A stretch of 63,437 nucleotides of DNA. Source: an uncultured Methylococcaceae bacterium. GTDB lineage: Bacteria; Pseudomonadota; Gammaproteobacteria; Methylococcales; Methylomonadaceae. Shown piece after piece: positions 4,576-19,042 of this stretch (position 1 is its first letter; each line of letters begins with the position of its first letter). The translations under genes and the position numbers were made by a program. The DNA is taken from assembly GCA_903945375.1 (NCBI GenBank), contig CAJAVP010000121.1, forward strand, positions 1 to 63,437, given 5' to 3'. The notes below the pieces were generated by a model. That model worked only from the letters and a program-made list of their open reading frames with translations. It ran no database searches and was not told the origin of the DNA.

Positions 4576-7251
4576 TCAAGGCAGTGTTTTAACGGATAGT
4601 GTCCTTTTTAATAACACGTTAATTTCTGGTACACATGAGCCACAGTTGGTGCCTGCTTTTAGGCATTGTCCCACGGCAGCGGCGGTGGTTAAACCTTGTT
4701 CTTTGATTGCATTCACTAGGGTTTTTTCACCGACACGAAAACAGGCACACACCATAGTGCCGACATCCACTTTACCTAAGGGCGGACAGCCGGTTAATAG
4801 GGCGCGATGCTCGTCGTCATCGAGCTGAGGTTTACTGAATAAACCACTTAACCAAGTGCGTTCGGGTAAGTCTTTTTGGCGACTGATAAATAGCACACTT
4901 TCTAGGCGTTGTTTGATGACCTGCGCGGTGCGGTAATTACCCAAATGATAGTCTTGGTATTCTAAGCAAGGTGTCGAAGATAGCCGTCCAAGTTGTTGCT
5001 GCGCCCAGCTGGGCCAATGCTCCGGTAAGTCATGACCGGCGAGTTCGTAACGATAAAACTGCTCACCTTTGATTTTCACCCAATAGTCTTTATGGTTTAA
5101 CGATAATGCCTTGCGTGACAAAATAAAACCAACCCACTGTGGTTGATACGGGCTAATGTGTACGGGTGTATATTTGCTTTCCGGTTGTTTAGATAAGGCA
5201 TCCACTGCTGGATTAACTAAGCTTCCCATTCGACCATGACTAGCGTATTGAGCCGTCCAGTGCATGGGGACAAACAGGTTGCCGCGTTTTTGAGTATCGG
5301 TTATTTGCACTCGCGCCAACATTGCACCCCAGCGGCTGTTGATATGCGCGAGTCCGTTATGCGTTAAATGATACTGTTTGGCATCCTGCGGATGAATCTC
5401 CACAAAGGGTTCTGGCTTATGTTGATTTAATTTAGCGGCAATCGCGGTGCGGGTCATGGTGTGCCATTGATCCCGCAAACGACCAGTGTTTAATATCAAG
5501 GGATACTGTGCATCGGGTAGGTGCTGTGGAGGTTTGGGTGTAATGGCTATAAAGTGTGCTTTGCCAGAGGGGGTATAAAATTTCCCATCAGCAAAAAAGC
5601 GGGCTTTTCCGTGTGGATGACTCGCATTAACGGGCCATTGTATGGGTACTAATTGTTCATAATCCGTATCGCTCATGTCTGCAAAGGCAGAAATATCAAA
5701 ATCCCGTGTACCGTTATTTTCATAACCCGATAATGCGGCATGTTCACGAAAAATATCCGCAGCAGTTTGGTAGGCAAAGGCTTGTTCAAACCCCATGCGT
5801 TGGGCAACTTGCGAGATAATCCACCAATCTGGCATCGCTTCACCTGCGGGTGTTAATAAGCGTCGTTGACGTGAGATACGCCGTTCAGAATTAGTCACCG
5901 TGCCGGTTTTTTCACTCCAGGCTTGCGCGGGTAATAACACATGCGCCAACGCGGTAGTGTCTGTATGGGCAATACAATCTGAAACGATGACTAACTCGCA
6001 GCGTTGTAAGGCTTGTTTGACTTTATCGGCATTGGGCAAACTGACCACAGGGTTAGTGCCCATAATCCAAACGGCTTTAATACGTCCGTCATAAATGGCA
6101 TCAAATAGCTCCACTGCGGGTAAGCCGGGTTGTTGAGCTATACGGTCGCTGCTCCAGAATTGTGCGACACGCTGAATGTCGTCTGGCTTAGAAAAATCCA
6201 TGTGTGCGGCTAATTGGTGTGAGAGTCCGCCGACTTCACGACCGCCCATGGCATTAGGCTGACCGGTCAGTGAAAAAGGTCCCATGCCAGGTTGACCAAT
6301 GCGCCCAGTGGCTAAATGGCAATTGATAATGGCATTGACTTTATCCGTGCCGCTGGTGGATTGATTAACCCCTTGGCTATACAGGCTCATGGTCTTGTTA
6401 GTTTGTGCAAACCACTGATAAAACTGTTGCAGGTCTTCGCTATTGATTTGGCATTGTGCCGCAACGTGTTCGGTGCTTTGGGTGGTGGCTAACGCGCTGT
6501 TTAAGGCGGCTGAAAAGCCTTCGGTTTGTTGGTCAATATACGCTGAATCCACAGCATCATGGTCTGCCAAATAAGCCAGTAAACCATTAAATAACAGCGT
6601 ATCGCTGCCTGCAGCTAGGGGTAAATGTAAATCGGCAATCGCACAGCTGGCGGTTTTTCTAGGATCGATGACGACAATTTTTAACGCCGGACGCGCTTCT
6701 TTGGCAGCACGAATACGCTGAAAAATAACGGGATGACACCATGCGGCATTAGACCCAATGAAGACAATCATATCGGCTAGCTCAACATCCGCATAGCAGC
6801 CCGGTACGGTATCGGCACCAAATGCGCGTTTGTGTCCAGCCACCGATGACGACATACATAAACGACTGTTGGTATCCATATTGCCGCTACCGATAAACCC
6901 TTTCATCAACTTATTAGCCACGTAATAATCTTCAGTCAGTAATTGCCCTGAGCCATAAAGTGCCACTGCTTCTGGGCCGTGTTGCTCAATTACCTTTAGA
7001 AACGCTTGGGCAACCCAATCTAAAGCGTTTGACCAGGTGCTTGTTTGCCCAAAGAGTTGTGGCTGTAATAAGCGTCCGTTTACTTCTAAGGTTTCAGCTA
7101 AAGCGAAACCTTTTGAGCAAAGTCGCCCAAAATTAGCAGGATGGTTTTTATCGCCAGCAATCGTAACGTGGCTATGGGTCTTATCTACGGTCGCGCTAAT
7201 ACCACAGCCGACCCCGCAATAAGGGCAAGTGGTTTGTATTGTGTCAGACAT
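4576..7251 (-). CDS. nasA: Assimilatory nitrate reductase catalytic subunit
   Basis: This cytoplasmic molybdopterin enzyme reduces nitrate to nitrite. The 891-residue protein opens with the 4Fe-4S cysteine motif CPYCGVGCG (about 9-17) and the later RLCSKG cysteine. Long molybdopterin oxidoreductase and dinucleotide-binding domains follow (for example YSQGVNQSTSGTDK and GMGPFSLTGQPNAMGGREVG). The C-terminal BFD-like [2Fe-2S] domain (about 830-885) carries CACFRVGE and GTNCGSC, a feature of many NasA proteins. ATG at 7251 is chosen over an in-frame TTG at 7263: GGACGGG precedes it and it overlaps the stop of the upstream reductase gene by 8 bases, indicating translational coupling. It is the last gene of the leftward nirB operon. 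No dedicated terminator was seen after it. Confidence 0.95.
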   Translation of the reverse strand: MSDTIQTTCPYCGVGCGISATVDKTHSHVTIAGDKNHPANFGRLCSKGFALAETLEVNGRLLQPQLFGQTSTWSNALDWVAQAFLKVIEQHGPEAVALYGSGQLLTEDYYVANKLMKGFIGSGNMDTNSRLCMSSSVAGHKRAFGADTVPGCYADVELADMIVFIGSNAAWCHPVIFQRIRAAKEARPALKIVVIDPRKTASCAIADLHLPLAAGSDTLLFNGLLAYLADHDAVDSAYIDQQTEGFSAALNSALATTQSTEHVAAQCQINSEDLQQFYQWFAQTNKTMSLYSQGVNQSTSGTDKVNAIINCHLATGRIGQPGMGPFSLTGQPNAMGGREVGGLSHQLAAHMDFSKPDDIQRVAQFWSSDRIAQQPGLPAVELFDAIYDGRIKAVWIMGTNPVVSLPNADKVKQALQRCELVIVSDCIAHTDTTALAHVLLPAQAWSEKTGTVTNSERRISRQRRLLTPAGEAMPDWWIISQVAQRMGFEQAFAYQTAADIFREHAALSGYENNGTRDFDISAFADMSDTDYEQLVPIQWPVNASHPHGKARFFADGKFYTPSGKAHFIAITPKPPQHLPDAQYPLILNTGRLRDQWHTMTRTAIAAKLNQHKPEPFVEIHPQDAKQYHLTHNGLAHINSRWGAMLARVQITDTQKRGNLFVPMHWTAQYASHGRMGSLVNPAVDALSKQPESKYTPVHISPYQPQWVGFILSRKALSLNHKDYWVKIKGEQFYRYELAGHDLPEHWPSWAQQQLGRLSSTPCLEYQDYHLGNYRTAQVIKQRLESVLFISRQKDLPERTWLSGLFSKPQLDDDEHRALLTGCPPLGKVDVGTMVCACFRVGEKTLVNAIKEQGLTTAAAVGQCLKAGTNCGSCVPEINVLLKRTLSVKTLP

Positions 7252-8458
7252 AAGCCCGTCCAAAAATTAACGCCTCTCGCATGGGGGCAATATCCTGACC
7301 TTGCTCCAGCAATTCTTGATACCAAGCCCCGTCTCCGGTATCGCCATACAAAACTGCACCAATCAATTTATTGGCTTTGATAACCAGTTTTTTATAAATA
7401 CTCGCGTTTGGATCACTTAAATAAATACTTTCACTGTTGGCATCCCCTTGAAAGTCGCCGACCGAAAAAACGTGGATGCCGGTGACTTTGAGCTTAGTTG
7501 CCGTGGGTTGCGTAAGATAATTGGCGACACCATGAGCACTTAAATGATTGGCACAGACTTTGGCTTGTTCAAACAAAGGCGCGACTAAGCCAAACGTTTC
7601 CCCACGATGTTGAATGCACTCGCCGACGGCATAAATACTAGGGTCATAGGTTTGCAGGGTATCATTGACGACAATACCCCGTTCACAATACAACCCTGCG
7701 GCTTGAGCTAAGGCCATATTTGGTCGTACACCAATGGCGACAATCAGGACATCACAGGCTAGCTCGCTGTTGTCTTCTAGGGTTAAGGCTCGGATATGAC
7801 CCTTTGCATCACCAACTAAGGCCTTGAGTTGGCTTGCCATGTTAAAGCGCATGCCGCGTCGCTCAAGCTCGGCTTGTAATAATTGACTCGCCGGCTTATC
7901 CAATTGGCGATTTAATAAGGCTTCATGATTATGCAGCACGGTAACTTCCATGCCTTGACTCAGCAAGCCGTTTGCCGCTTCTAGGCCCAATAAACCGCCG
8001 CCTAATACCACCGCTTTACGATGACTACGGCTGTATGACAACATCGTATCAACATCAATGACCGCTCTAAAACGCAGTACACCGTCTAAATTGATGCCTT
8101 CCAATTCAGGCATCACTGCATTCGAGCCGGTCGCAATCAGTAAACGATCATAATCAGCTACTGTGCCATCTTGAGCCATTACCTTTTTATTGCGCCGATC
8201 AATCTGCACAATGGTTTTGTTCGCACCGACATGCAGCGTGATGTGATTGTCGCTGTACCATTGCCGATCATTGATAACAATCTCGGTCATCGCTTTTTCG
8301 CCAGACAGCAGTGATGACAACATAATACGGTTGTAATTTCCGTGCGGCTCTGCACCAAAAACAGTAATACGATAAGCCTGAGGCGCAGCGGCTAATAACT
8401 CTTCTATTGTGCGCATACCTGCCATGCCATTTCCGATAACTACTAATTTCTTTTTCAC
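7244..8458 (-). CDS. FAD/NAD(P)-dependent oxidoreductase, probable nitrate reductase electron-transfer subunit (NasB-like)
   Basis: The 404-residue flavoprotein belongs to the NirB/rubredoxin-reductase fold. Its N-terminal FAD-binding motif is VVIGNGMAGMRT (about 6-17). A second Rossmann motif for NAD(P) is VVLGGGLLGLEAANG (about 145-160). A flavin-contacting segment, YDPSIYAVGECIQHRGE, lies in the C-terminal third. It matches the N-terminal flavin module of NirB but lacks the BFD and siroheme domains. Its position between nirD and nasA, with ORF overlap into nasA, suggests it passes electrons from NAD(P)H to the nitrate reductase, as NasB (NasC in Klebsiella) does. The partner assignment is inferred from context. 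A second, independent reductase serving nitrite is less likely, because NirB has its own flavin module. Confidence 0.8.
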   Translation of the reverse strand: MKKKLVVIGNGMAGMRTIEELLAAAPQAYRITVFGAEPHGNYNRIMLSSLLSGEKAMTEIVINDRQWYSDNHITLHVGANKTIVQIDRRNKKVMAQDGTVADYDRLLIATGSNAVMPELEGINLDGVLRFRAVIDVDTMLSYSRSHRKAVVLGGGLLGLEAANGLLSQGMEVTVLHNHEALLNRQLDKPASQLLQAELERRGMRFNMASQLKALVGDAKGHIRALTLEDNSELACDVLIVAIGVRPNMALAQAAGLYCERGIVVNDTLQTYDPSIYAVGECIQHRGETFGLVAPLFEQAKVCANHLSAHGVANYLTQPTATKLKVTGIHVFSVGDFQGDANSESIYLSDPNASIYKKLVIKANKLIGAVLYGDTGDGAWYQELLEQGQDIAPMREALIFGRAYV

Positions 8459-8472
8459 GCGTCCCCCTTCGG

Positions 8473-8796
8473 TTAACTATGCAAATAAACCCAGTTATCT
8501 TGGATAAACACCGGATACGTGGGGATAGAAACTTGCTCATCTTCCAAACAAACGCCTGTTTCTAAATTAAAATGTTGCTTATAAAGCGGCGATGCCACCA
8601 CGGGTTGACCCTGTAAATCACCCATTAAGCCGCGTGATAACACGTTGACTTGACTAAAAGGATCATAATTTCCAATGGCATAAATGGCGTTATCATCGGG
8701 ATGATAAAAAATCGCCACTTGCACTCCGGCAACCGTTACACAAATACCCGCATTGACTAATAAGTCACTGACTTCACAGACGGCAATTGACTTCAT
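8473..8796 (-). CDS. nirD: Nitrite reductase [NAD(P)H] small subunit
   Basis: This 107-residue NirD has the Rieske-like fold of nitrite reductase small subunits. Visible family signatures are QVAIFYHPDDNAIYAIGNYDPFS and GDLQGQPVVASPLYKQHFNLETG, ending in the short YPVFIQDNWVYL strand. The Cys/His cluster ligands of true Rieske proteins are absent, as is usual for NirD. It works with NirB in reducing nitrite to ammonium in the cytoplasm. The ATG overlaps the nirB stop by 4 bases (ATGA), so the two are almost certainly translationally coupled. The flavoprotein gene follows after 14 bases. Confidence 0.95.
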   Translation of the reverse strand: MKSIAVCEVSDLLVNAGICVTVAGVQVAIFYHPDDNAIYAIGNYDPFSQVNVLSRGLMGDLQGQPVVASPLYKQHFNLETGVCLEDEQVSIPTYPVFIQDNWVYLHS

Positions 8797-11327
8797 ACCA
8801 CATACTCCGTAAGCGTTAGTAATTGACGTTCAGCGGGGGTTGCGGGGCGGTGTTGTCCGCGTGTTTCGACAAACACAATTTGCTCATCAGACTGGTCACT
8901 ATTAACGAAATGTCGGAAGCGTTTAAGCTGTTGCTCATCTTCAACCGTTGTTTTCCACTCACATTGATAACTGTCCACAATATGCTGTAACTGCTGTTCT
9001 AATTGACTGGCTAAATCCAGTTTGTCATCTAAAATCACTGCTTTAAGATAATCCAGTCCACCATCTAAACTGTCTAACCAGGTTGAGGTGCGTTGCAGAC
9101 GATCGGCAGTGCGGACATAAAACATCAAAAACCGATCAATGGTTTTAATTAAGTCGATTTTACTTAAATGAGTTGCCAGTAAATCAGCATGGCGTGGCTT
9201 CATACCGCCATTACCACAGACATATAAATTCCAACCTTTTTCCGTGGCGATAATGCCGACATCTTTACTTTGTGCCTCGGCGCATTCACGGGTACAGCCG
9301 GACACGCCAAATTTAAGCTTATGCGGTGAACGCAAACCTTTATAGCGGTTTTCCAATTCAATCGCCAAGCCTACGCTGTCATCAACACCATATCGACACC
9401 ACGTACTCCCGACACAGGATTTGACTGTGCGTAGGGATTTGCCATAGGCATGACCGGATTCAAAACCAGCTTGAATTAATTCCTGCCAAATCGGTGGCAA
9501 CTGATCGACCCTCGCGCCAAATAAATCAACCCGTTGTCCGCCAGTAATTTTGGTATAAAGTTGATATTTTTTGGCAATTTGACCCAATGCAATTAATTTG
9601 TCCGGCGTGATTTCGCCACCCGCAACACGCGGAACAATTGAATACGTGCCATCTTTTTGGATATTCGCAAGATACGCATCATTACTATCTTGCAGACTTT
9701 GATGTTCGGTTTTTAAAATGTAGTCATTCCACTGTGAGGCGAGAATGGAGGCAACGGTCGGTTTGCAAATTTCACAGCCTTTGCCTTTGCCGTGTTTTGT
9801 CAATAATTCGGCAAAGGTTTGGATACGTTCTACGCAGATTAGGTGATACAAGTCTTGACGTGAATACGCAAAATGTTCACATAAATCAGTGTTGATTGTA
9901 TGCCCTTGTTGGAGTAGCGCGGCGTTTAAGACGGATTTGATTGAAGGAACACAGCCACCACAACCACTGCCTGCTTTCGTTTCATTTTTCAAGGCATTGA
10001 CGGTACAACAGCCAGCGGCTATCGCGTTGCTTAATGTGCCTTTGCTGACATCGTGACACGAACAGATTTGTGCCGAATCGGGTAAACCATCTGTGCCTAA
10101 GCTTATCGACGCGCCAGAGCGTGCCGGTAAAATCAACTCATCGGGTTGTTCTGGCAAGGCAATACCATTTAAACAGTATTGCAATAAACTGCCATAAGCC
10201 GAGTTATCACCAATCAGTACCGCGCCTAAGAGTTGTTGTTTATCGGCACTGACGACTAGCCGTTTATACACATCGTGTTCGCTATTTTGGTAGGTATACA
10301 CCAGCGCACCTTGGGTTTTGGCATGAGCATCACCAATACTGGCGACATCAACACCCAATAATTTCAGTTTGGTACTCATGTCTGCACCACTAAAACTGCC
10401 TGAGACTCCCGCTAAATCTGCTACGACTGCCCGAGCCATTGCATAACCTGGGGCAACAAGTCCGTAAATCATGCCATTCCATAACGCGCATTCACCTATG
10501 GCATAAATGGCCGCATCGGAAGTTTGGCACTGATTATTGATGACAATGCCACCGCGTTCACCGACCGATAAGCCACACGCTCGGGCTAACTCATCACGTG
10601 GACGAATACCGGCTGAAAATAACACCACATCCGTTTCTAGTTCTTCACCATCAGCAAAGCACATTTTATTAACACACTGCTCACCTGCACTAATTTGACT
10701 GGTATTCTTGCCAGTATGCACGGTGACATCTAAGGCTTCAATTTTGCGCCTAAGCATTGCGCCACCTAGCTCGTCAATTTGTACCGCCATTAAGCGCGGT
10801 GCAAATTCCACAATATGGGTTTGCAAACCCAAATCTTTTAACGCTTTAGCCGCTTCAAGTCCAAGCAATCCCCCGCCGACCACGGTGCCAATTTTGGCGG
10901 TTTTAGCGGCAAGCAGCATCGCTTCTAAATCTTCAATGGTGCGGTACACCAAGCATTGCGGGCGATTATGTCCGGGAATCGGCGGTACAAAAGGATAAGA
11001 GCCTGTGGCTAAGACCAGTTTGTCATAACGAATGCAGCGTCCTTTTGCCGAAGTGACGGTTTGGGTTACACGATCAACCGCGACCGCTTTGTCACCTAGA
11101 TGAATGGTGATGTTGTGTTCAGTAAAAAAGCCCTCAGTCACTAAAGATAACTCGTCAGCCGTTTTACCCGAGAAAAATTCAGATAAATGCACACGGTCAT
11201 AAGCCGCTCTGGGTTCTTCACAGAAAGTAATCACCTCATAGTCTGCACGTGCTGGACTGTTGATTAATTCGGTCAAAAAATACTGACCGACCATACCATT
11301 ACCTATTACTACTATTGTTTGTTTCAT
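8793..11327 (-). CDS. nirB: Nitrite reductase [NAD(P)H] large subunit
   Basis: This 844-residue enzyme performs six-electron reduction of nitrite to ammonium. In order it shows an FAD motif (VVIGNGMVGQYF, about 5-16), an NAD motif (VVGGGLLGLEAAKAL, about 148-162), and a BFD [2Fe-2S] domain with CSCHDVSKG and GSGCGGCVPS (about 420-470). A second BFD-like domain has GKGCEICKP (about 515), followed by a ferredoxin-like half domain. The siroheme/4Fe-4S region reads SCVGSTWCRYG and SGCTRECAEAQSKD (about 640-700). ATG at 11327 is preceded by GAGGTGG; the longer frame starts at a TTG with no ribosome site. It is the first gene of a leftward operon controlled by the sigma54 promoter and ANTAR leader at 11356-11485. 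Confidence 0.96.
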   Translation of the reverse strand: MKQTIVVIGNGMVGQYFLTELINSPARADYEVITFCEEPRAAYDRVHLSEFFSGKTADELSLVTEGFFTEHNITIHLGDKAVAVDRVTQTVTSAKGRCIRYDKLVLATGSYPFVPPIPGHNRPQCLVYRTIEDLEAMLLAAKTAKIGTVVGGGLLGLEAAKALKDLGLQTHIVEFAPRLMAVQIDELGGAMLRRKIEALDVTVHTGKNTSQISAGEQCVNKMCFADGEELETDVVLFSAGIRPRDELARACGLSVGERGGIVINNQCQTSDAAIYAIGECALWNGMIYGLVAPGYAMARAVVADLAGVSGSFSGADMSTKLKLLGVDVASIGDAHAKTQGALVYTYQNSEHDVYKRLVVSADKQQLLGAVLIGDNSAYGSLLQYCLNGIALPEQPDELILPARSGASISLGTDGLPDSAQICSCHDVSKGTLSNAIAAGCCTVNALKNETKAGSGCGGCVPSIKSVLNAALLQQGHTINTDLCEHFAYSRQDLYHLICVERIQTFAELLTKHGKGKGCEICKPTVASILASQWNDYILKTEHQSLQDSNDAYLANIQKDGTYSIVPRVAGGEITPDKLIALGQIAKKYQLYTKITGGQRVDLFGARVDQLPPIWQELIQAGFESGHAYGKSLRTVKSCVGSTWCRYGVDDSVGLAIELENRYKGLRSPHKLKFGVSGCTRECAEAQSKDVGIIATEKGWNLYVCGNGGMKPRHADLLATHLSKIDLIKTIDRFLMFYVRTADRLQRTSTWLDSLDGGLDYLKAVILDDKLDLASQLEQQLQHIVDSYQCEWKTTVEDEQQLKRFRHFVNSDQSDEQIVFVETRGQHRPATPAERQLLTLTEYVV

Positions 11328-11355
11328 AACCACCTCTACAGGCTTTTTGTCAGGC

Positions 11356-11407
11356 AAAAAAAAAGGTATCTAAAACACATGCTCGGCATGAGTTCTATGA
11401 CACCTTT
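11356..11407 (-). terminator. Attenuator terminator in the nirB leader
   Basis: On the minus strand a 9-bp stem pairs AAAGGTGTC (11407-11399) with GATACCTTT (11370-11362), with one G-U pair. It encloses a second 5-bp hairpin CATGC-CGA-GCATG (11390-11378) and ends in a run of nine T (11364-11356). This is a strong intrinsic terminator placed 29 bases before the nirB ATG, inside the 5' leader and not after a gene. It should abort transcription unless antitermination occurs. The ANTAR-type hairpins lie immediately upstream. Confidence 0.85.
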
Positions 11408-11414
11408 GTCTGAT

Positions 11415-11456
11415 CAGTTCTGCATTGAACTGGGGATATGACTCCATCGTTGGAGC
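11415..11456 (-). promoter_or_regulatory. ANTAR-type two-hairpin RNA motif in the nirB leader
   Basis: Two small hairpins lie in tandem on the minus strand. P1 (11456-11441) has stem GCTCC/GGAGT and six-base loop AACGAT. P2 (11432-11415) has stem CAGTTC/GAACTG and six-base loop AATGCA. Both loops have A at position 1 and G at position 4, the published signature of RNAs bound by ANTAR antiterminators such as NasR, NasT and EutV. P1 begins a few bases after the predicted sigma54 start point, and the attenuator follows P2 by 7 bases. The likely ligand is the ANTAR protein encoded at 11757. The fold was done by eye. Confidence 0.82.
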
Positions 11457-11469
11457 TTACATGTTAATT

Positions 11470-11485
11470 AGCAATTACTGTGCCT
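11470..11485 (-). promoter_or_regulatory. Sigma54 (-24/-12) promoter of the nirB operon
   Basis: The minus strand reads AGGCACAGTAATTGCT. It contains the GG and GC doublets with exactly 10 bases between them and matches the sigma54 consensus TGGCAC-N5-TTGC at all but the first base. Transcription should start near 11459, just before the first ANTAR hairpin. A probable NtrC site lies about 120 bases upstream. This arrangement indicates nitrogen-limitation control of nitrite and nitrate reduction. Confidence 0.8.
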
Positions 11486-11585: not shown

Positions 11586-11756
11586 TAGATAGGTTTTTTT
11601 GTTGTGCATGACGTGGAGAAAGTGTCTTTCCGCACACTTATAAAATTAAGCGCGTGTGTGTTTTAGCTAAGAATGCTTTCATTGGTGCATAAGTTGCTTA
11701 GTAGACTACACACTCTATATTTTATAAGCCATCACAGCAGATGCCCGCACATCATT

Positions 11757-12329
11757 ATGCTTAATATCGTTTTAATTGAATTTGATCCTCAACATACGTT
11801 GCTGGAACACAGCTTATCGCTGTGTGGTTTTAATTGCCTCAAACTTTCGGACAACGAGGATTTTCTTGCTCAGCTTAAGCATTATTCCGCTGATGTGCTG
11901 ATGTTTAATGTAACCACTCCCTCAACAAAATTAATTGCTGATTTACAACGACTTAATAAACAATCACCCTTACCAGTGGTGATCTTCGCCACCGATGAAC
12001 AGACCGATACGATTCAACACGTTATCAACGCGGGTGTCAGTAGCTTTATTGTATGTGACACTGTGCCTATTGTTAGGCTAAATAGCATTATCCACGTCGC
12101 TATCGCACGCTTTAAACAGCAGCAAGTACTCAAAACCGCCTTAGAAGAAGCGCGTGTACAATTGGAAGACCGTAAACAAATCGATCGGGCGAAAGCGATT
12201 TTAATTCAAACCCGAAATTTCACTGAAAACGAGGCCTACCACACCTTAAGAAAGCTGGCGATGGATAGGAATATTACTTTGGGAGAGATGGCTAAGAATG
12301 TCATTGCAATGGCGGAATTACTCAAATAA
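11757..12329 (+). CDS. nasT: NasT-like ANTAR-domain transcription antiterminator
   Basis: This 190-residue protein has an N-terminal receiver-like domain (LNIVLIEFDPQHTLL, about 2-16) and a C-terminal ANTAR domain (about 135-188: RKQIDRAKAILIQT then AYHTLRKLAMDRN). The usual phosphoacceptor Asp appears to be replaced in ADVLMFNVTTP, as in other NasT pseudo-receivers, so regulation is probably by partner binding and not by phosphorylation. ANTAR proteins bind tandem hexaloop RNA hairpins and prevent leader termination. Two such leaders flank this gene (11415-11456 and 14644-14685). ATG 11757 is chosen because the receiver fold begins there; an earlier in-frame ATG at 11673 adds 28 residues unlike the family. 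Neither start has a strong ribosome site. Confidence 0.9.
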   Translation: MLNIVLIEFDPQHTLLEHSLSLCGFNCLKLSDNEDFLAQLKHYSADVLMFNVTTPSTKLIADLQRLNKQSPLPVVIFATDEQTDTIQHVINAGVSSFIVCDTVPIVRLNSIIHVAIARFKQQQVLKTALEEARVQLEDRKQIDRAKAILIQTRNFTENEAYHTLRKLAMDRNITLGEMAKNVIAMAELLK

Positions 12330-12383
12330 CACGAATGCCCGATTGTTCGGGATTTACCCTCATTTATCGACGACTTAACACCC

Positions 12384-13301
12384 ATGAAGACCTTTATTAA
12401 AGTCACTGAACTATGGATTCCTGACAAAGAACGCACTCAATTGGAATTTGGCTCCGGTTTATATGGCTCGCTTTTAGACTTTAAAGCCGCGAGTGAACAA
12501 CAACGCTTTGCTTTCAATGAAGGCTTACCGGGCAAAGCGTGGGCGCAGCGACAACCTGTCATACTCACCGAATTTGAACATTCCTATTTTAAACGCACCG
12601 CTGCCGCAAAACAGGCAGGGCTAACATGTGGCATTGCTATTCCTATTTTTTCGGGTGATTTTTTAATGGCGGTGGTGATGTTTTTATGTGGCGATGATGA
12701 AGAACACGCAGGTGCTATTGAAATATGGAGCAATACAGCAACCAATCGGCTTGCGGTTAATGAAGGTTATTACGGCACACTGCATCATTTTGAAACGTTC
12801 TCACGTCAAATGACGTTAGCTAAAGGTGAAGGTATTCCGGGCTTGGTTTGGCAAAACAAGATGCCGGTATTAATCGAAGATATGGGGCAAACTGAACAGT
12901 TTGTGAGAGGCTTAGAGGCGCAGCAAGCGGGCATCACCACCTGTTTAGGTATTCCCGTCAGTAGTTATGACAATCAGGTCTGTATGATGACGTTCTTATC
13001 TGCCAAAGCCACGCCAATTGCTAAACGTATTCAAATTTGGATACCAGATGCGCTGGGCCAACAACTCATTTGCCAACAAGGTTATAGTAAAAATACCAAT
13101 GACTTAGCGCAGTTATTTGAAACCATACCCGTAACTAAAGGCGAAGGCGCGTTAGGTCGAGTTTGGCTGACCGGTATGCCGGTCATCAGTGGTTGCCAAG
13201 TCGCTCACTATAAGCCTGAATTAGATGATTTAAGCGCGATGCTAGCTATTCCGGTGATAGATAACGGGCACTTAAGTGCAATTGTGAGTTTTTTGTTTTA
13301 A
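12384..13301 (+). CDS. Triple tandem GAF-like repeat protein, candidate sensor partner of NasT
   Basis: The 305-residue protein consists almost wholly of three repeats of about 95-100 residues (about 8-105, 112-208, 214-305). Each starts with an xIW(I/S)P-like strand, carries a GEG(I/L)PGxxW-like segment (NEGLPGKAWAQRQP, GEGIPGLVWQNKMP, GEGALGRVWLTGMP), and ends with GIxIPxxx..xxMxxFL. This is the pattern of compact GAF domains, which bind small ligands or flavin/haem. No output domain, kinase, transmembrane segment or signal peptide is visible, so it is probably a cytoplasmic sensor acting through a partner. It lies 54 bases after nasT on the same strand, and no NasS is encoded in the window. 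A role as the signal-sensing partner of the ANTAR protein is inferred from position only. Confidence 0.75.
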   Translation: MKTFIKVTELWIPDKERTQLEFGSGLYGSLLDFKAASEQQRFAFNEGLPGKAWAQRQPVILTEFEHSYFKRTAAAKQAGLTCGIAIPIFSGDFLMAVVMFLCGDDEEHAGAIEIWSNTATNRLAVNEGYYGTLHHFETFSRQMTLAKGEGIPGLVWQNKMPVLIEDMGQTEQFVRGLEAQQAGITTCLGIPVSSYDNQVCMMTFLSAKATPIAKRIQIWIPDALGQQLICQQGYSKNTNDLAQLFETIPVTKGEGALGRVWLTGMPVISGCQVAHYKPELDDLSAMLAIPVIDNGHLSAIVSFLF

Positions 13302-13396: not shown

Positions 13397-14377
13397 CTAC
13401 TCTATTTTGCGTAGATTTTCAATTTCAGCATGTGTTAGGTTTGTGACTTTAGCAATCATGTCAATATCTAAACTTGTGGTGAGTAAATTTTTTGCAATTA
13501 GACGTTTTTCTTCTAGTTTGCCTTCTAGATTGCCTTGTTGTATACCTTCTTGTATACCTTGTTGTATACCTTCTTGTATACCTTGTTGTATACCTTCTTG
13601 TATACCTTGCTGTATACCTTGTTGTATACCTTCTTGTATACCTTGTTCAAGACCATCCATTCTAGCCGTTGCAATAACATTTTGAGCACGATGGATTTCC
13701 ATTTCTTGAGCATCATAAACCGCTAATTCTTCAGCCGACCATTGATGTTGTTCTGCTATTTCATAAGCTAATTTCAATGCCGCTGTGTTAGCGTGTTCTG
13801 GAACATGATCTAAATCAATGGCTTGTTGAATAAAGTAAATCCATTTGTCAGCAACTGTGTCAAGATCGGATTCCGTTTTTTTGAACTTTTTTAACTCAAT
13901 AAAATTCCATTCCAAATCGTGTAAATCATGTTGATGGGTTTCGCGGTTGATAATCAAATGTCGTGAAAAATACTGCGTGTTTTTCTCAAACGCATCGAAA
14001 TTTAAAATCCCTAAAAAAATAACAGGTTTGAGTTTATAGTAATTTTGACCAATTGGTAGCTGCTGGCTGTAAGCTTTAGATGTGTAATACATCGCCCGTT
14101 GTGAAAACCACGCTTCTTTTGCTACTTGCATTTCAACGATAAATTCCCGCTCAGAGCTGTCTTTGGCTTTGACATCGAGGCCGGTAGTTTTTAAACCAGC
14201 AAATTTTGGCGGCTGATAACTGTTCAAAATTTCAACGCTTTCTATTGGATAATCAAGTTCTAGTATTTCATTCAAAAACTCAATCAAGATACTTTTATGG
14301 GCATCATTGCCAAAGATTTTTTTAAAGGCAATATCGGTTTTGGGATCTACAAATTTCATGGGCAGTATGTTTTCCAT
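13397..14377 (-). CDS. Rpn-family (PD-(D/E)xK) recombination-promoting nuclease/putative transposase
   Basis: The 326-residue protein begins with the family signature FVDPKTDIAFKKIFG (about 9-23), followed by the probable catalytic segment EFIVEMQVAKEAWF (about 78-91) and YYTSKAYSQQL. Rpn/PDDEXK-2 proteins are RecA-independent DNA nucleases that promote recombination and are often present in many copies. Residues about 245-285 are an uninterrupted run of GIQQ/GIQE units encoded by 24-bp DNA repeats. Such a Gly-Ile-Gln linker is common in the family before the short C-terminal helical domain. It sits on the opposite strand between the ANTAR/GAF regulator pair and the nitrate transporter, with no apparent link to nitrate, so it is probably an insertion. 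Confidence 0.9.
   Translation of the reverse strand: MENILPMKFVDPKTDIAFKKIFGNDAHKSILIEFLNEILELDYPIESVEILNSYQPPKFAGLKTTGLDVKAKDSSEREFIVEMQVAKEAWFSQRAMYYTSKAYSQQLPIGQNYYKLKPVIFLGILNFDAFEKNTQYFSRHLIINRETHQHDLHDLEWNFIELKKFKKTESDLDTVADKWIYFIQQAIDLDHVPEHANTAALKLAYEIAEQHQWSAEELAVYDAQEMEIHRAQNVIATARMDGLEQGIQEGIQQGIQQGIQEGIQQGIQEGIQQGIQEGIQQGNLEGKLEEKRLIAKNLLTTSLDIDMIAKVTNLTHAEIENLRKIE
13535..13648. repeat. 24-bp tandem repeat within the Rpn nuclease gene
   Basis: About four to five copies of a 24-bp unit (12-bp half units such as CTTCTTGTATAC and CTTGTTGTATAC) encode alternating GIQE and GIQQ on the minus strand. Copies are nearly identical at the DNA level. Gain or loss of half units by slippage would stay in frame and only change linker length. 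Confidence 0.9.
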
Positions 14378-14613: not shown

Positions 14614-14629
14614 TGGCACAAAACCTGCT
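14614..14629 (+). promoter_or_regulatory. Sigma54 (-24/-12) promoter of the nitrate transporter operon
   Basis: TGGCACAAAACCTGCT has the perfect -24 element TGGCAC and a -12 GC doublet, with 10 bases between GG and GC. Transcription should begin near 14640, directly before the first ANTAR hairpin. Further upstream (14467-14500) a larger imperfect palindrome with GGTGCAA and TTGCAC halves might bind an activator, but it does not have the standard NtrC half-site orientation. Confidence 0.8.
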
Positions 14630-14643
14630 TTAACTATTTCAGT

Positions 14644-14685
14644 GGTTCTAATGAGGGAGCCAAACTACTAAGCTCATTGCTGAGT
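14644..14685 (+). promoter_or_regulatory. ANTAR-type two-hairpin RNA motif in the nrtA leader
   Basis: P1 (14644-14661) pairs GGTTCT with GGAGCC around the six-base loop AATGAG. P2 (14672-14685) pairs GCTC with GAGT around ATTGCT. Both loops have A1 and G4, as in the nirB leader, although the stems are weaker and contain G-U pairs. P1 starts close to the predicted sigma54 transcription start and the attenuator follows P2 by 8 bases. This repeats the nirB layout with different stem sequences, which supports conserved structure over chance. Confidence 0.78.
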
Positions 14686-14693
14686 AAACAGAC

Positions 14694-14759
14694 AAAGGCG
14701 TCGATTAAATTGCTTACGTTATTCATAACCTAAGCAATTTCTGAGACGCCTTTTTTTTT
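14694..14759 (+). terminator. Attenuator terminator in the nrtA leader
   Basis: An outer stem pairs AGGCGTC (14696-14702) with GACGCCT (14745-14751). An inner stem pairs AAATTGCTTA with TAAGCAATTT. A run of nine T follows (14751-14759). It ends 30 bases before the nrtA ATG, so it is a leader attenuator and not the end of a gene. Confidence 0.88.
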
Positions 14760-14789: not shown

Positions 14790-16172
14790 ATGAAAATAAG
14801 CACAATGAAGCTAACTCAAAAGATAAGAACATTAGCTGCTATGACTGCATTAAGTGTTGCCGCCAATGTGGGGGCGGTGACAACTATTGAAAAAGAAAAC
14901 CTTAAATTTGGTTTTATTAAACTGACCGATATGGCACCGTTAGCGGTTGCATTTGAAAAAGGTTTTTTTGAAGACGAAGGGCTTTACGTGCAATTGGAAG
15001 CGCAGGCGAATTGGAAAGTTGTAATGGATCGGGTGGTGAGTGGTGAATTAGATGGTTCGCACATGCTAGCCCCAGCGCCATTAGGTGCCAGTATCGGTTT
15101 TGGTACACAGGCTGATATTGTGACGGCGTTTAGTATGGGTTTTAACGGCAGTGCAATCACCGTATCCAATGATATTTGGAAATTAATGAAACCTAATGTG
15201 CCAATGGACGCGGGTAAACCCATTCATCCGATTAAAGCGGATGCACTAAAACCAGTGGTCGAAAAATATAAAAGTGAAGGTAAGCCGTTTAACATGGCGA
15301 TGACCTTTCCTGTTGGTAGTCATAATTTAAAGCTTCGCTATTGGTTAGCCGCAGGTAGGATCAATCCAGGATTTTACGCGCCACCACAAGACAATTCTGG
15401 TCAGGTAGATGCGGATGCACTGTTATCCGTTACGCCACCACCACAAATGCCCGCAACACTGGAATCTGGCACTATTTTGGGTTACTGCGTTGGTGAGCCC
15501 TGGAATCAGCAAGCCGTGATTAAAGGCATCGGTGTCCCCGTTGTCACTGATGACGAATTATGGAAAAACACACCGGAAAAAGTGTTTGGCGTGACTAAAG
15601 CATGGGCGGATAAAAATCCCAATACACATTTGGCGGTGGTGAAAGCCTTGATTAGAGCATCGATTTGGTTAGATGCAGAAAACAACAAAAATCGCAAAGA
15701 AGTCATAGAGATGCTGTCACAAAAACACTATGTGGGCGCGGATGTTGAGGTGTTAGCCAAGAGCATGAACGGCACGTATGACTATGAAAAAGGCGATACA
15801 CGAAATTTGCCTGATTTCAATACGTTTTTCCGCAATGGCGCAAGTTACCCTTCTTACAGCAGTGCCGTTTGGTATCTAACGCAATTACGTCGTTGGGGCA
15901 TGATTAGTGAATTTAAGCCAGATAGTTGGTATTTAGACACCGCAAAAAAAGTCTATCGTCCTGATATTTATTTAACAGCGGCAACAGCCTTAGTCGCAGA
16001 AGGTAAAGCGAAAGCGGCTGATTTCCCAACGGATACCGCGCTGAATCCGCCGCAAAATTTCTTTATTGATAAAATCAGCTTCGATGCCAACAAACCCAAT
16101 GACTATTTAAATCAATTTGCAATTGGTTTGAAGGCGAAGCAAAAAATTGTGGGTGGGAAAGTGGTGGACTAA
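14790..16172 (+). CDS. nrtA: Nitrate ABC transporter substrate-binding protein
   Basis: The roughly 460-residue protein has a basic N terminus and hydrophobic signal segment (about 1-30, KIRTLAAMTALSVAANVGA). The NrtA/SsuA-like binding fold follows (LKFGFIKLTDMAPLAVAFEKGFF, GELDGSHMLAPAPL, FPVGSHNLKLRYWLAAG, GYCVGEPWNQQAV). NrtA-type proteins bind nitrate (and often nitrite) and deliver it to the NrtB permease. ATG 14790 is preferred over 14766 because AGGA lies 9 bases upstream and the signal peptide starts there. It opens the rightward operon and is preceded by the sigma54 promoter, ANTAR hairpins and attenuator. The signal peptide argues against this being the cytoplasmic NasS sensor, which is a homologue. 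Confidence 0.93.
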   Translation: MKISTMKLTQKIRTLAAMTALSVAANVGAVTTIEKENLKFGFIKLTDMAPLAVAFEKGFFEDEGLYVQLEAQANWKVVMDRVVSGELDGSHMLAPAPLGASIGFGTQADIVTAFSMGFNGSAITVSNDIWKLMKPNVPMDAGKPIHPIKADALKPVVEKYKSEGKPFNMAMTFPVGSHNLKLRYWLAAGRINPGFYAPPQDNSGQVDADALLSVTPPPQMPATLESGTILGYCVGEPWNQQAVIKGIGVPVVTDDELWKNTPEKVFGVTKAWADKNPNTHLAVVKALIRASIWLDAENNKNRKEVIEMLSQKHYVGADVEVLAKSMNGTYDYEKGDTRNLPDFNTFFRNGASYPSYSSAVWYLTQLRRWGMISEFKPDSWYLDTAKKVYRPDIYLTAATALVAEGKAKAADFPTDTALNPPQNFFIDKISFDANKPNDYLNQFAIGLKAKQKIVGGKVVD

Positions 16173-16257: not shown

Positions 16258-17274
16258 ATGAGCAATCAACTGATTAAATTTTTAACCATCACCGGTTTAA
16301 CTTGGTTTGTGCCTTTGGTCAAATTGGCTAACGGCGAGAATCCAAACCAACAAGTCCGTGAGTTATGGCTGATTATGGGTACGCCGATTATTGCGTTTAT
16401 GTTGTTTTTGGCGATGTGGAGTTTTTCCTCCTCTAAAATTAATACTAGCCTTGGGGCAATTCCAGGGCCATCTGCGGTATGGGTGGAGGCGGAAGGACTA
16501 TTGACAGCACATTATGCTGAGCGTCAAAAAGAGCTTGAATTTTATCAGCGACAAGCTACACGTAATGAAAAAGTATTAGCAGAATCACCCAATGCAGATA
16601 TTAAAAAACGTCCTTACACCGGTAAGCCGACATATGTTGATCAAATTTTTACCAGTTTGTATACGGTATTTGCCGGTTTTATCATTGCTACGTCAATCGC
16701 TATTCCGTTGGGTATTTTGTGCGGTATGAGTACCACGATTAATAACGCACTCAATCCGATTATCCAAATTTTTAAACCTGTATCACCGTTGGCTTGGTTG
16801 CCGATTGTTACCTTAATCGTTAGTTCAATGTATGTGACGACTGAAGACTCGTGGTTTGAGAAATCTTTTTTGACCTCGGCGATTACGGTCACCTTATGTT
16901 CATTATGGCCAACCTTAATTAATACCGCTGTTGGCGTATCATCCATTGATAAAGATTTGGTGAATGTCGGTAAAGTGTTGCGTCTTAGCTGGTTTACGCA
17001 AATCAAAAAAATCATTTTACCGTCCGCATTACCGTATATTTTTACCGGCATGAGATTGTCCTTAGGGGTGGGCTGGATGGTGCTGATTGCCGCTGAAATG
17101 CTGGCGCAAAATCCTGGTTTAGGCAAATTTGTCTGGGATGAATTTCAAAACGGCAGTTCTAATTCGTTAGGGCGCATTATGGTCGCGGTATTTACAATTG
17201 GCATTATTGGCTTCATTCTCGACCGTATCATGCAGTCATTGCAAAATGTATTTGCTTTTGGTCGAGCTCTTTAA
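16258..17274 (+). CDS. nrtB: Nitrate ABC transporter permease
   Basis: The 338-residue inner-membrane protein has an N-terminal hydrophobic segment (about 32-55: LWLIMGTPIIAFMLFLAMW) and a charged region (about 75-130). The BPD-transporter permease domain with several membrane helices follows (about 130-330). The EAA loop, which contacts the ATPase, is in NVGKVLRLSWFTQIKKIILPSALPYIF (about 238-264), and GLGKFVWDEFQ follows in the last third. It pairs with NrtA and the fused ATPase to import nitrate. It lies 85 bases after nrtA with a hairpin between, and 13 bases before the ATPase gene. Confidence 0.93.
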   Translation: MSNQLIKFLTITGLTWFVPLVKLANGENPNQQVRELWLIMGTPIIAFMLFLAMWSFSSSKINTSLGAIPGPSAVWVEAEGLLTAHYAERQKELEFYQRQATRNEKVLAESPNADIKKRPYTGKPTYVDQIFTSLYTVFAGFIIATSIAIPLGILCGMSTTINNALNPIIQIFKPVSPLAWLPIVTLIVSSMYVTTEDSWFEKSFLTSAITVTLCSLWPTLINTAVGVSSIDKDLVNVGKVLRLSWFTQIKKIILPSALPYIFTGMRLSLGVGWMVLIAAEMLAQNPGLGKFVWDEFQNGSSNSLGRIMVAVFTIGIIGFILDRIMQSLQNVFAFGRAL

Positions 17275-17287
17275 TCAGGAATTATTT

Positions 17288-19042
17288 ATGAACGCTGTCA
17301 TGAAAATACAATCCGATGACTATCAACTCACTCAGCCTCGCCTTCGACCTTCTAATGATGCAGATTTGCCGATTGTTGAGTTAATCAATGTCAGTAAATC
17401 CTATGGTGAAGGTAGGGAAAAAAACTGCATTTTAAAAAACATTAACTTATCCATTAAACAAGGCGAATTTATCGCTATTGTTGGCTTTTCTGGCAGTGGC
17501 AAAACCACGCTGATCTCAACGATTGCCGGCTTAATCCAAGCCGATAGTGGCGAGGTCTTAAAACAAGGTAAACCAATAACCCAGCCCGGGCCTGATCGTG
17601 GCGTGGTTTTTCAAAATTATTCGCTGATGCCGTGGTTGACGGTTTATGAGAACGTCGCATTGGCGGTCGATGAGATTTTTAAAGACTGGTCGGCCGAACA
17701 ACGCCGTCTACATACCGAACATTATGTGCGAATGGTGAATTTGAGCGCGGCAATGGCGAAGCGTCCAGCTGAACTATCTGGAGGGATGCGTCAGCGCGTT
17801 AATGTGGCACGGGCATTAGCGGCTAACCCAGACATTTTATTGCTGGATGAGCCGCTGAGCGCGTTGGATGCGTTGACGCGTGGCAATTTACAAGATGAGA
17901 TTTTATCCATTTGGGAACAAGAGCGAAAAACCGTCATTCTGATTACCAATGATGTGGATGAGGCAATTTATATGGCGGATCGGGTGATTCCATTAAACCC
18001 AGGTCCGGAAGCGACCTTTGGCCCAAGTTACCCCATTACTCTCCAACGACCTAGAGATCGTACTGCGTTAAATCATAATCCTGAATTTAAACGCCTGCGG
18101 GCTGACATCACGCAGTATTTAATGCAGGTCGGCGCGGGCAAAACACAAGCCGTTATAACCGACAAAATCCTCTTGCCTCAGGTTAAACCCAATACCAGTT
18201 CGGATTGGCAGTTGAATCATGCCATTGTAAAAACACCCCAAGAACATCTGGAGCGACCCCGGTATTTAGAGTTCTCACAGCTATCCAAAAGTTATCCTAA
18301 AGCCGGGGGCAATGGCACGGTAAAAGTAGTTGATGGCTTTGATTTAAAAATGAAAAAAGGCGAGTTTGTTGCCATTATTGGCCATTCTGGCTGCGGTAAA
18401 TCAACTGTTTTATCCATGGCGGCTGGGTTAACCTCGATTAGCGAAGGGGGCATTATTTTAGATAATCGCGAAGTCGATAGTGCTGGGCCAGACAAAGGTG
18501 TGGTGTTTCAAGCACCGAGTTTGTTTCCTTGGTTGAGTGCGTTTGACAATGTGATGTTAGGCGTTGATAAAGTTTATCCCCATGCCAGCCAAGCCGAGCG
18601 AGAAGATATTGTGGGCTATTATTTATCGCGTGTCGGGCTGGGTGATGCTATGCGTAAGAAGGCCATTGAATTATCCAATGGTATGCGTCAACGTGTGGGC
18701 ATTGCGCGTGCGTTTGCACTATCGCCCAAGCTGTTATTGTTGGACGAACCTTTTGGAATGCTGGATTCGTTGACGCGCTGGGAATTGCAAGAAGTGTTAA
18801 TGGAAGTTTGGGAGCGCACCCAAGTGACTGCTGTGGTGGTTACGCATGATGTTGATGAGGCAATTTTGCTGGCGGATCGTGTGGTGATGATGACGAATGG
18901 TCCACACGCTAAAATTGGCAAAATTCAGACGATTGATTTACCCAGGCCGCGTACTCGTCAAGCCTTGCTATCACACGATGATTATTATGCCTATCGAGAA
19001 AGTATCCTCAGTTTTTTAACCGACTGTGAGCATACGCATTAA
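17288..19042 (+). CDS. Nitrate ABC transporter ATPase with two fused nucleotide-binding domains
   Basis: A 584-residue polypeptide carries two complete ATPase domains joined by a linker (about 260-325). Domain 1 has Walker [11 protein letters not shown], signature LSGGMRQRV and Walker [13 protein letters not shown]. Its switch segment reads ITNDVDEA, with Asn where the H-loop His is expected. Domain 2 has [31 protein letters not shown] and a normal THDVDEA. In cyanobacteria these functions are split into NrtC and NrtD; here they are one chain without an NrtA-like tail. The substitution suggests unequal ATP sites (inference). ATG 17288 has AGGA 7 bases upstream; the longer frame overlaps nrtB and lacks a ribosome site. 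Confidence 0.9.

Follow-up and report, generated by a model that had tools for sequence, protein, structure and literature searches.

NasS-NasT systems occur in Azotobacter, Pseudomonas, Paracoccus and Bradyrhizobium, and in receiver domains an aspartate is usually the phosphorylated residue. In the sections cited here, the literature describes NasS-NasT and NasR as inputs to nitrate-assimilation (nas) genes (PMC3795266, PMC3369931). Here we describe a locus on a 63,437-nucleotide (nt) stretch of DNA from an uncultured Methylococcaceae bacterium (contig CAJAVP010000121.1; the whole stretch is called the window), in which the gene of a NasT-type ANTAR protein is followed by the gene of a protein with three tandem GAF repeats. 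Searches of the open-licence literature returned no title or abstract describing such a triple-GAF/ANTAR pairing or a GAF partner of NasT. The triple-GAF protein is probably a sensor of the nitrogen pathway and no simple substitute for NasS; its likeliest role in the family of the window's host is a direct or indirect input to the ANTAR protein, a reading to which we assign a probability of roughly 45%. The two genes are:

11757..12329, plus strand: NasT-type REC-ANTAR protein, 190 amino acids (Pfam, structure-profile match, residue table)
12384..13301, plus strand: triple-GAF protein, 305 amino acids, three repeats of about 104 amino acids, no output domain (Pfam, repeat alignment, AlphaFold2)

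By its domains the first protein is a NasT-type transcription antiterminator, and antitermination is the predicted mode of action at this locus. The ANTAR domain (PF03861) was detected at the C-terminus (residues 131-183) with 64.6 bits at a cut-off of 27.3, and the family profile gave full-length matches to the REC-ANTAR structures 1s8n (4-182) and EutV 6wsh (4-184). The receiver domain (PF00072) reached 26.4 bits and thus stayed below its own cut-off of 30.2, and alignment and residue table place an asparagine (N51) instead of aspartate at the phospho-acceptor position, in agreement with the degenerate receiver proposed in the initial annotation. No match to the NIT domain (PF08376) was obtained in the Pfam search of this protein, with the same library detecting PF08376 in a Variovorax protein. 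The start at 11757 was chosen over 11673 owing to the alignment of relatives, which begins there, and to a sigma-54-like site at 11683-11698. A second ANTAR protein of the host genome (L002 on G000:C39, 1468-1860, minus strand; 130 amino acids; ANTAR 46.8 bits) has a coiled-coil-like stretch before its ANTAR domain and, as judged by eye, adjoins a glutamine-synthetase-like gene.

The open reading frame (ORF) of the triple-GAF protein starts 54 nt downstream of the ANTAR ORF. Pfam analysis led to three GAF_2 stretches (78.4 bits), the only other models above cut-off being GAF and the GAF-like bHLH-MYC_N, and neither an output domain nor the NrtA-type binding fold (PF13379) was matched. The repeats are homologous, with 31 of 94 positions identical between repeats 1 and 2 and a score of 136 (maximum of 200 shuffles, 36), and the AlphaFold2 model shows a like series of strands and helices three times (predicted local distance difference test 84.6, predicted template modelling score 0.86), as had been expected of this gene from the first reading of the DNA. 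A ligand could not be assigned by homology, as the matches to the GAF domain of plant NLP proteins (E 0.0015, below the Pfam cut-off) and to NreA (E 0.79) are weak and many other GAF proteins fit the fold equally well or better. Two arginines 104 residues apart, R71 and R175, do not vary among 16 relatives. Many fold alignments extend from residue 1 of the model to around residue 291 yet align just some 100 residues, and other rows are contiguous over 1-116; in the model, the N-terminal strands could pack on the last GAF repeat and so close a ring. The nearest named relatives, with 62-84% GAF identity, are from Methylovulum and other metagenome-assembled genomes of Methylococcales, and they place the host in this order.

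NasS had been reported as missing from the window, and this extends to the whole genome. A NasS profile run over 151 genomes of the order separated a class of NasS proteins, scoring at least 572 bits, from all remaining matches (426 bits or less), and its sole match in the host genome is the NrtA of the window with 371.8 bits. This protein was rejected as a mis-annotated NasS in view of its signal-like N-terminus and its position before nrtB and nrtCD. PF13379 led to NrtA (315.8 bits) and two weak matches (58 and 38.3 bits), both with leader-like N-termini and, by eye, with response-regulator/HD-type genes adjoining; a NasS hidden elsewhere in the genome was therefore rejected as well.

The survey of the order connects the two genes. 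A full-length triple-GAF protein is encoded in 30 of the 151 genomes, not counting G076 with its mere 45.7-bit partial GAF match inside a 1306-residue frame, and an ANTAR protein in 95, among them all 30 GAF-positive ones. Both genes are adjacent on one strand with ANTAR upstream in 22 of the 30. An independent contig scan gave 32 loci, in 27 of which the GAF gene follows the ANTAR gene on one strand, so that the pairing is not due to chance; in the other five, the ANTAR gene lies 1.2 kb downstream on the opposite strand (L032), no such ANTAR gene is present in the locus (L033, L036, L037) or the contig is cut off (L038). NasS-class proteins are found in 27 genomes of the order (one, in G033, with an internal stop), none of them GAF-positive. 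The 95 ANTAR genomes thus fall into 30 with GAF, 27 with NasS, none with both and 38 with neither.

From genomes of the order, 40 stretches were taken, selected by hand so as to cover the arrangements and not at random. At the phospho-acceptor position, aspartate is kept in 11 of 11 loci whose ANTAR protein is partnered with NasS or an NrtC-type domain, five with NasS adjacent, two with NasS further off and four of the NasS/NrtC type plus GAF. In 34 NasS-less loci of the window's family the residue is asparagine except in L031 (Asp), L103 (His) and L092 (Gln), regardless of whether the neighbour is GAF, a transporter of the major facilitator superfamily (MFS) or neither, and in the NasS-less loci L083 and L088 of other families it is alanine. 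Loss of the aspartate therefore tracks the loss of NasS and not the triple-GAF gene. Since the receiver lacks a phosphorylatable aspartate and NasS is gone, the ANTAR protein would need some other input, for which the neighbouring triple-GAF protein is the best candidate.

Several observations weigh against this assignment. Within the order, 65 of the 95 ANTAR-positive genomes have no triple-GAF gene, and the 58 ANTAR genomes of the window's own family divide into 30 with GAF, one with NasS and 27 with neither. The eight GAF-positive genomes without the adjacent arrangement all belong to genus g3, where the GAF gene is unlinked from the ANTAR gene or, in two cases, its convergent neighbour. 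Nine of these 27 without NasS and GAF were inspected and share the asparagine receiver, so such an ANTAR protein can exist without either partner. In eight of these nine, from several genera, an MFS gene lies directly 5' of the ANTAR gene (L069-L073, L075, L076, L087), and in L078 neither a triple-GAF nor an MFS gene is found beside it. These relatives favour an explanation in which the NasS-less ANTAR protein is constitutive or otherwise governed, for example by the MFS transporter in some genera, with nitrate control lost and the GAF protein a bystander; the deregulation of nas genes upon loss of nasS in P. denitrificans, as given in the cited part of that study (PMC3795266), would fit as well. 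Against this stand the ANTAR gene in 47 of 47 GAF-positive genomes tested and the clustering of both genes in several lineages, and we consider this explanation very improbable.

Outside the order, the triple-GAF protein was detected in four genomes of a class sample of 369 and, besides the window's genome, in 10 genomes of a phylum sample of 397. An ANTAR gene is present in all 14 GAF-positive genomes outside the order and in three of three named genomes (Thiogranum and two Variovorax), whereas in the phylum sample as a whole 150 of 397 genomes, or 90 of 223 genera, possess one, and at the genome level the GAF gene is thus not one that occurs mostly without nasT. These counts are themselves to be read with caution, as they rest on related, non-independent species and may merely follow nitrate assimilation. 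Five of 72,556 plasmid records match; in one of them, from Ponticoccus alexandrii (37.3%), the match extends over 80% or more of the protein. Further loci (L033, L118, L119, L121, L144) lie on short stretches or have an ambiguous context.

The arrangements in these genomes add to the points against an ANTAR input. Adjacency of ANTAR and GAF genes was found outside the order only in G484, among the genomes examined. Three genomes of another class, probably Alphaproteobacteria, carry nasT-nasS-nrtA-nrtB-nrtCD-GAF-nirB-nasA (L141-L143). In G484 (L122) the order is nrtA-nrtB-NrtC type fusion-ANTAR-GAF-nirB-nasA; the fusion (4862-7126), located directly before the ANTAR and triple-GAF genes, joins an ABC ATPase to an NrtA-type domain (PF13379) and is possibly a transporter-borne NasS. 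Variovorax L037 combines NIT-ANTAR, nrt genes, a globin-like gene, GAF, nirB and nasA, and in Variovorax PMG_217 one contig carries the GAF gene (L036) and another the NIT-ANTAR gene (L124). In six of six such loci (L141-L143, L122, L036, L037) the triple-GAF gene is directly 5' of nirB, five of the genomes having NasS or NIT-ANTAR in the locus or on a companion contig and G484 the NrtC-type domain. This presence before nirB, beside another sensor, goes beyond the initial annotation and implies that the GAF protein is not simply a NasS replacement. It also speaks for an explanation in which the triple-GAF protein is a sensor or allosteric partner not of the ANTAR protein but of NirBD, NasA or the Nrt transporter, and thus of the machinery of assimilation, its adjacency to ANTAR in methanotrophs being an accident of operon history. 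In the window's family, however, GAF stands next to ANTAR and not nirB in 22 of 30 genomes, and many nas loci of the order lack the triple-GAF gene. We rank such an enzyme- or transporter-side role next after an ANTAR input and regard it as rather unlikely.

Copies away from nas genes point in yet another direction. Six genomes of g410 (L135-L140) have just generic ABC-ATPase matches near the triple-GAF gene and no nas gene, a further point against the ANTAR input. Diverged copies in G124 (L095, 6708-7607, a second copy) and G327 (L120, 7396-8298, minus strand) adjoin genes that we take to resemble nif flavodoxin and Rieske ferredoxin. Both sets would agree with a sensor of a general nitrogen or redox signal, such as nitric oxide, 2-oxoglutarate or a nucleotide, serving nas or nif via other targets. 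The nif-side copies are, however, only 54% and 41% identical to the window protein and branch outside the ANTAR-side clade, so that their role may differ, and a general sensor of this kind appears improbable. In a tree of 44 GAF rows, to be read with caution for the long branches of L144, L122, L095 and L033, the ANTAR-adjacent methanotroph proteins form a supported clade of 16, sister to nine proteins from g3 and L032, and G484 groups with L141-L143. On at least two occasions, therefore, ANTAR adjacency evolved or was retained. Finally, NreA, a nitrate-binding protein, is one of many GAF fold matches and not the best, which lends the assignment no help either.

From the conserved linkage and the absence of NasS, control of the antiterminator by the triple-GAF protein retains its place as the preferred reading, as suggested in the initial annotation; its exclusive form fails, given GAF genes with nasT-nasS, NrtC-type or NIT-ANTAR partners and relatives without GAF. 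Likewise, the expected co-occurrence of the triple-GAF gene with nasT and without NasS held at the genome level for all 30 GAF-positive genomes of the order and broke down in L141-L143.

Two operons beside the pair are the likely targets of the ANTAR protein, each preceded by a leader:

11356..11465, minus strand: nirB leader with hexaloops P1 (loop 11451-11446), P2 (11426-11421) and P3, GAC[AAAGGT]GTC (11407-11402)
11470..11485, minus strand: sigma-54-type -24/-12 site preceding the nirB leader, AGGCACAGTAATTGCT
8793..11357, minus strand: nirB, large subunit of the assimilatory nitrite reductase, target operon 1 (ORF, homologues in related loci)
8473..8796, minus strand: nirD-like small subunit (ORF, related loci)
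7244-8458, minus strand: FAD oxidoreductase (ORF on the same strand after the nirD-like gene)
4576-7263, minus strand: nasA nitrate reductase (ORF on the same strand; with the FAD oxidoreductase 4576..8458)
11683..11698, plus strand: weaker sigma-54-like site before the ANTAR gene, with 2 mismatches
14614..14629, plus strand: sigma-54-type -24/-12 site preceding the nrtA leader, TGGCACAAAACCTGCT
14636..14759, plus strand: nrtA leader with hexaloops P1 (loop 14650-14655), P2 (14676-14681) and P3, GAC[AAAGGC]GTC (14694-14699)
14790..16172, plus strand: nrtA, nitrate-binding protein with N-terminal signal-like sequence, not NasS (PF13379, NasS profile)
16258-17274, plus strand: nrtB permease, target operon 2 (ORF, related loci)
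17198-19042, plus strand: fused nrtCD ATPase, target operon 2 (ORF, related loci; with nrtB 16258..19042)

The names nirB, nirD, nasA, nrtB, nrtCD, FAD oxidoreductase and globin are presumed from the appearance of the sequences and not taken from annotation. The nirB ORF opens with TTG at 11357 and has an ATG at 11327. Between the triple-GAF gene and nrtA, an ORF at 13397-14377 (minus strand) carries a run of QQGIQEG-type repeats, and we take it to resemble Rpn/PD-(D/E)XK transposase-nuclease proteins.

In an Rfam search of the whole window no family reached its gathering score, and the leaders were located by script. A scan of both strands of the window for two hexaloop hairpins with A at loop position 1 and G at position 4, followed by a T-run, gave exactly two sites, one ahead of nirB and one ahead of nrtA; in 30 two-base-block shuffles the mean number was 0.47 and the highest 2. 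In both leaders P3 sits within the 5' arm of the intrinsic terminator, and the leaders of relatives likewise show P1, P2 and, in the terminator 5' arm, GAC[AAAGGC]GTC, also an A1/G4 hexaloop. The nirB leader folds with a z of -5.16. A covariance model scored the nirB leader with 79.3 and the nrtA leader with 96.1 bits, both sequences being part of the model, and found nothing else in the whole genome apart from a 22-bit antisense echo of one of them. In a hand-picked alignment of 19 leaders (A5), the first P1 loop base is A in 16 (G in L022, L031 and L008) and the fourth is G in all 19. RNAalifold recovered P1, P2 and the terminator without structure input, with two-sided changes in 4 of 18 pairs. 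The three-hairpin structure pairs 97.4% of cells (22-46% when slid) at a covariation of 0.235, compared with a shuffle mean of 0.169 (reached by 0 of 500) and 0.011-0.104 when slid; however, 143 of 500 shuffles attained its number of pairs with two-sided changes (3) and 441 its number of further pair types (9), and P3, being invariant, lies outside the reach of covariation.

A sigma-54-type GG-N10-GC site with at most two mismatches was found upstream of 34 of 34 leaders (random 90-nt segments: 30 of 1700), 58-71 nt before P3 (80 in L014). These leaders were chosen from 60 sites, the 26 left out being near-duplicates, leaders of other groups or chance sites. A sigma-54-like site precedes the ANTAR gene in 9 of 22 loci, the window included (random segments: 32 of 1100). 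Window-wide, the two-mismatch pattern shows no excess over chance (50 occurrences, 45.1 expected), and it is therefore the position that constitutes the evidence.

In 26 loci of other arrangements, the script detected no ANTAR leader within 400 nt directly before the triple-GAF gene. Over 36 loci (E 0.05), the covariance model gave no leader in L122 or L141-L143 and merely weak matches in L037, L071, L080, L086 and L124. In genus g3, ANTAR-type leaders (L089, 14901-15018, plus; L090, 16014-16131, plus; L094, 7267-7385, minus; and L090, 12807-12926, plus) also stand before a gene for a chemotaxis receptor, which is divergent from the triple-GAF gene, and before a gene with an EAL domain, as identified by Pfam in L090 and otherwise by eye; the g3 ANTAR regulon seems to extend to chemotaxis and cyclic di-GMP turnover.

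From these elements the following mechanism may be proposed. Transcripts of nirBD-nasA and nrtABCD would start at the sigma-54-type promoters, presumably under nitrogen limitation, and the leader RNA would fold into hexaloop hairpins and end at the intrinsic terminator whenever no ANTAR protein is bound to the hexaloops. As the last hexaloop (AAAGGY) is in the terminator 5' arm, an ANTAR protein keeping this arm open would block termination. The triple-GAF protein might act as a soluble small-molecule sensor for the nitrate/nitrogen pathway, restraining or activating the ANTAR protein by direct contact in response to nitrate, nitrite or nitrogen status. At the sequence level it is established that the antiterminator belongs to the ANTAR family and that NasS is missing, as are the two leaders with their upstream sigma-54-type sites, the threefold GAF repeat and the conserved linkage. 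A more specific scenario, in which the protein binds cytoplasmic nitrate or nitrite and gates an Asp-less NasT, having replaced NasS in methanotrophs after a role as second sensor beside NasS or NasR in nas operons, with the same family serving nif clusters through another ligand, we regard as doubtful.

A sensor-like gene in the nitrate-assimilation loci of several proteobacterial groups has thus been brought to light. Within one order the same antiterminator is accompanied by NasS, has a triple-GAF or a transporter gene as its neighbour, or stands apart from all of these, a natural series that makes signal input to ANTAR without phosphorylation directly testable and has a bearing on nitrogen use by methane oxidisers.

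Among the known systems that come close, NasS-NasT shares with the locus the NasT-type REC-ANTAR protein, nas/nir and nrt targets and a hexaloop leader before the terminator; nasS-nasT pairs are present in other genomes of the same order, but the window genome has no NasS, an asparagine for the receiver aspartate and a triple-GAF neighbour. NasR of Klebsiella, a NIT-ANTAR protein, likewise acts by ANTAR antitermination of a nitrate-assimilation operon, whereas the window protein is without a NIT domain. NreA of Staphylococcus has the GAF fold in common with the window protein, as a single domain in contrast to three fused repeats, and its partner is a histidine kinase. EutV shares the REC-ANTAR architecture, and no kinase gene was noticed by eye among the neighbouring ORFs of the window. 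In the cited part of one study, the second hexaloop of EutV targets is embedded in the terminator, as in the window leaders, and for EutX one additional single hexaloop is noted (PMC8934654). EutV relies on a dual hexaloop; each window leader has three conserved hexaloops in place of the usual two, the first two upstream and the third within the arm of the terminator. Finally, GAF-ANTAR one-component proteins, described in the cited section as uncharacterised as of 2012 (PMC3369931), likewise unite GAF sensing with ANTAR output, fused there in one protein and encoded here by separate genes.
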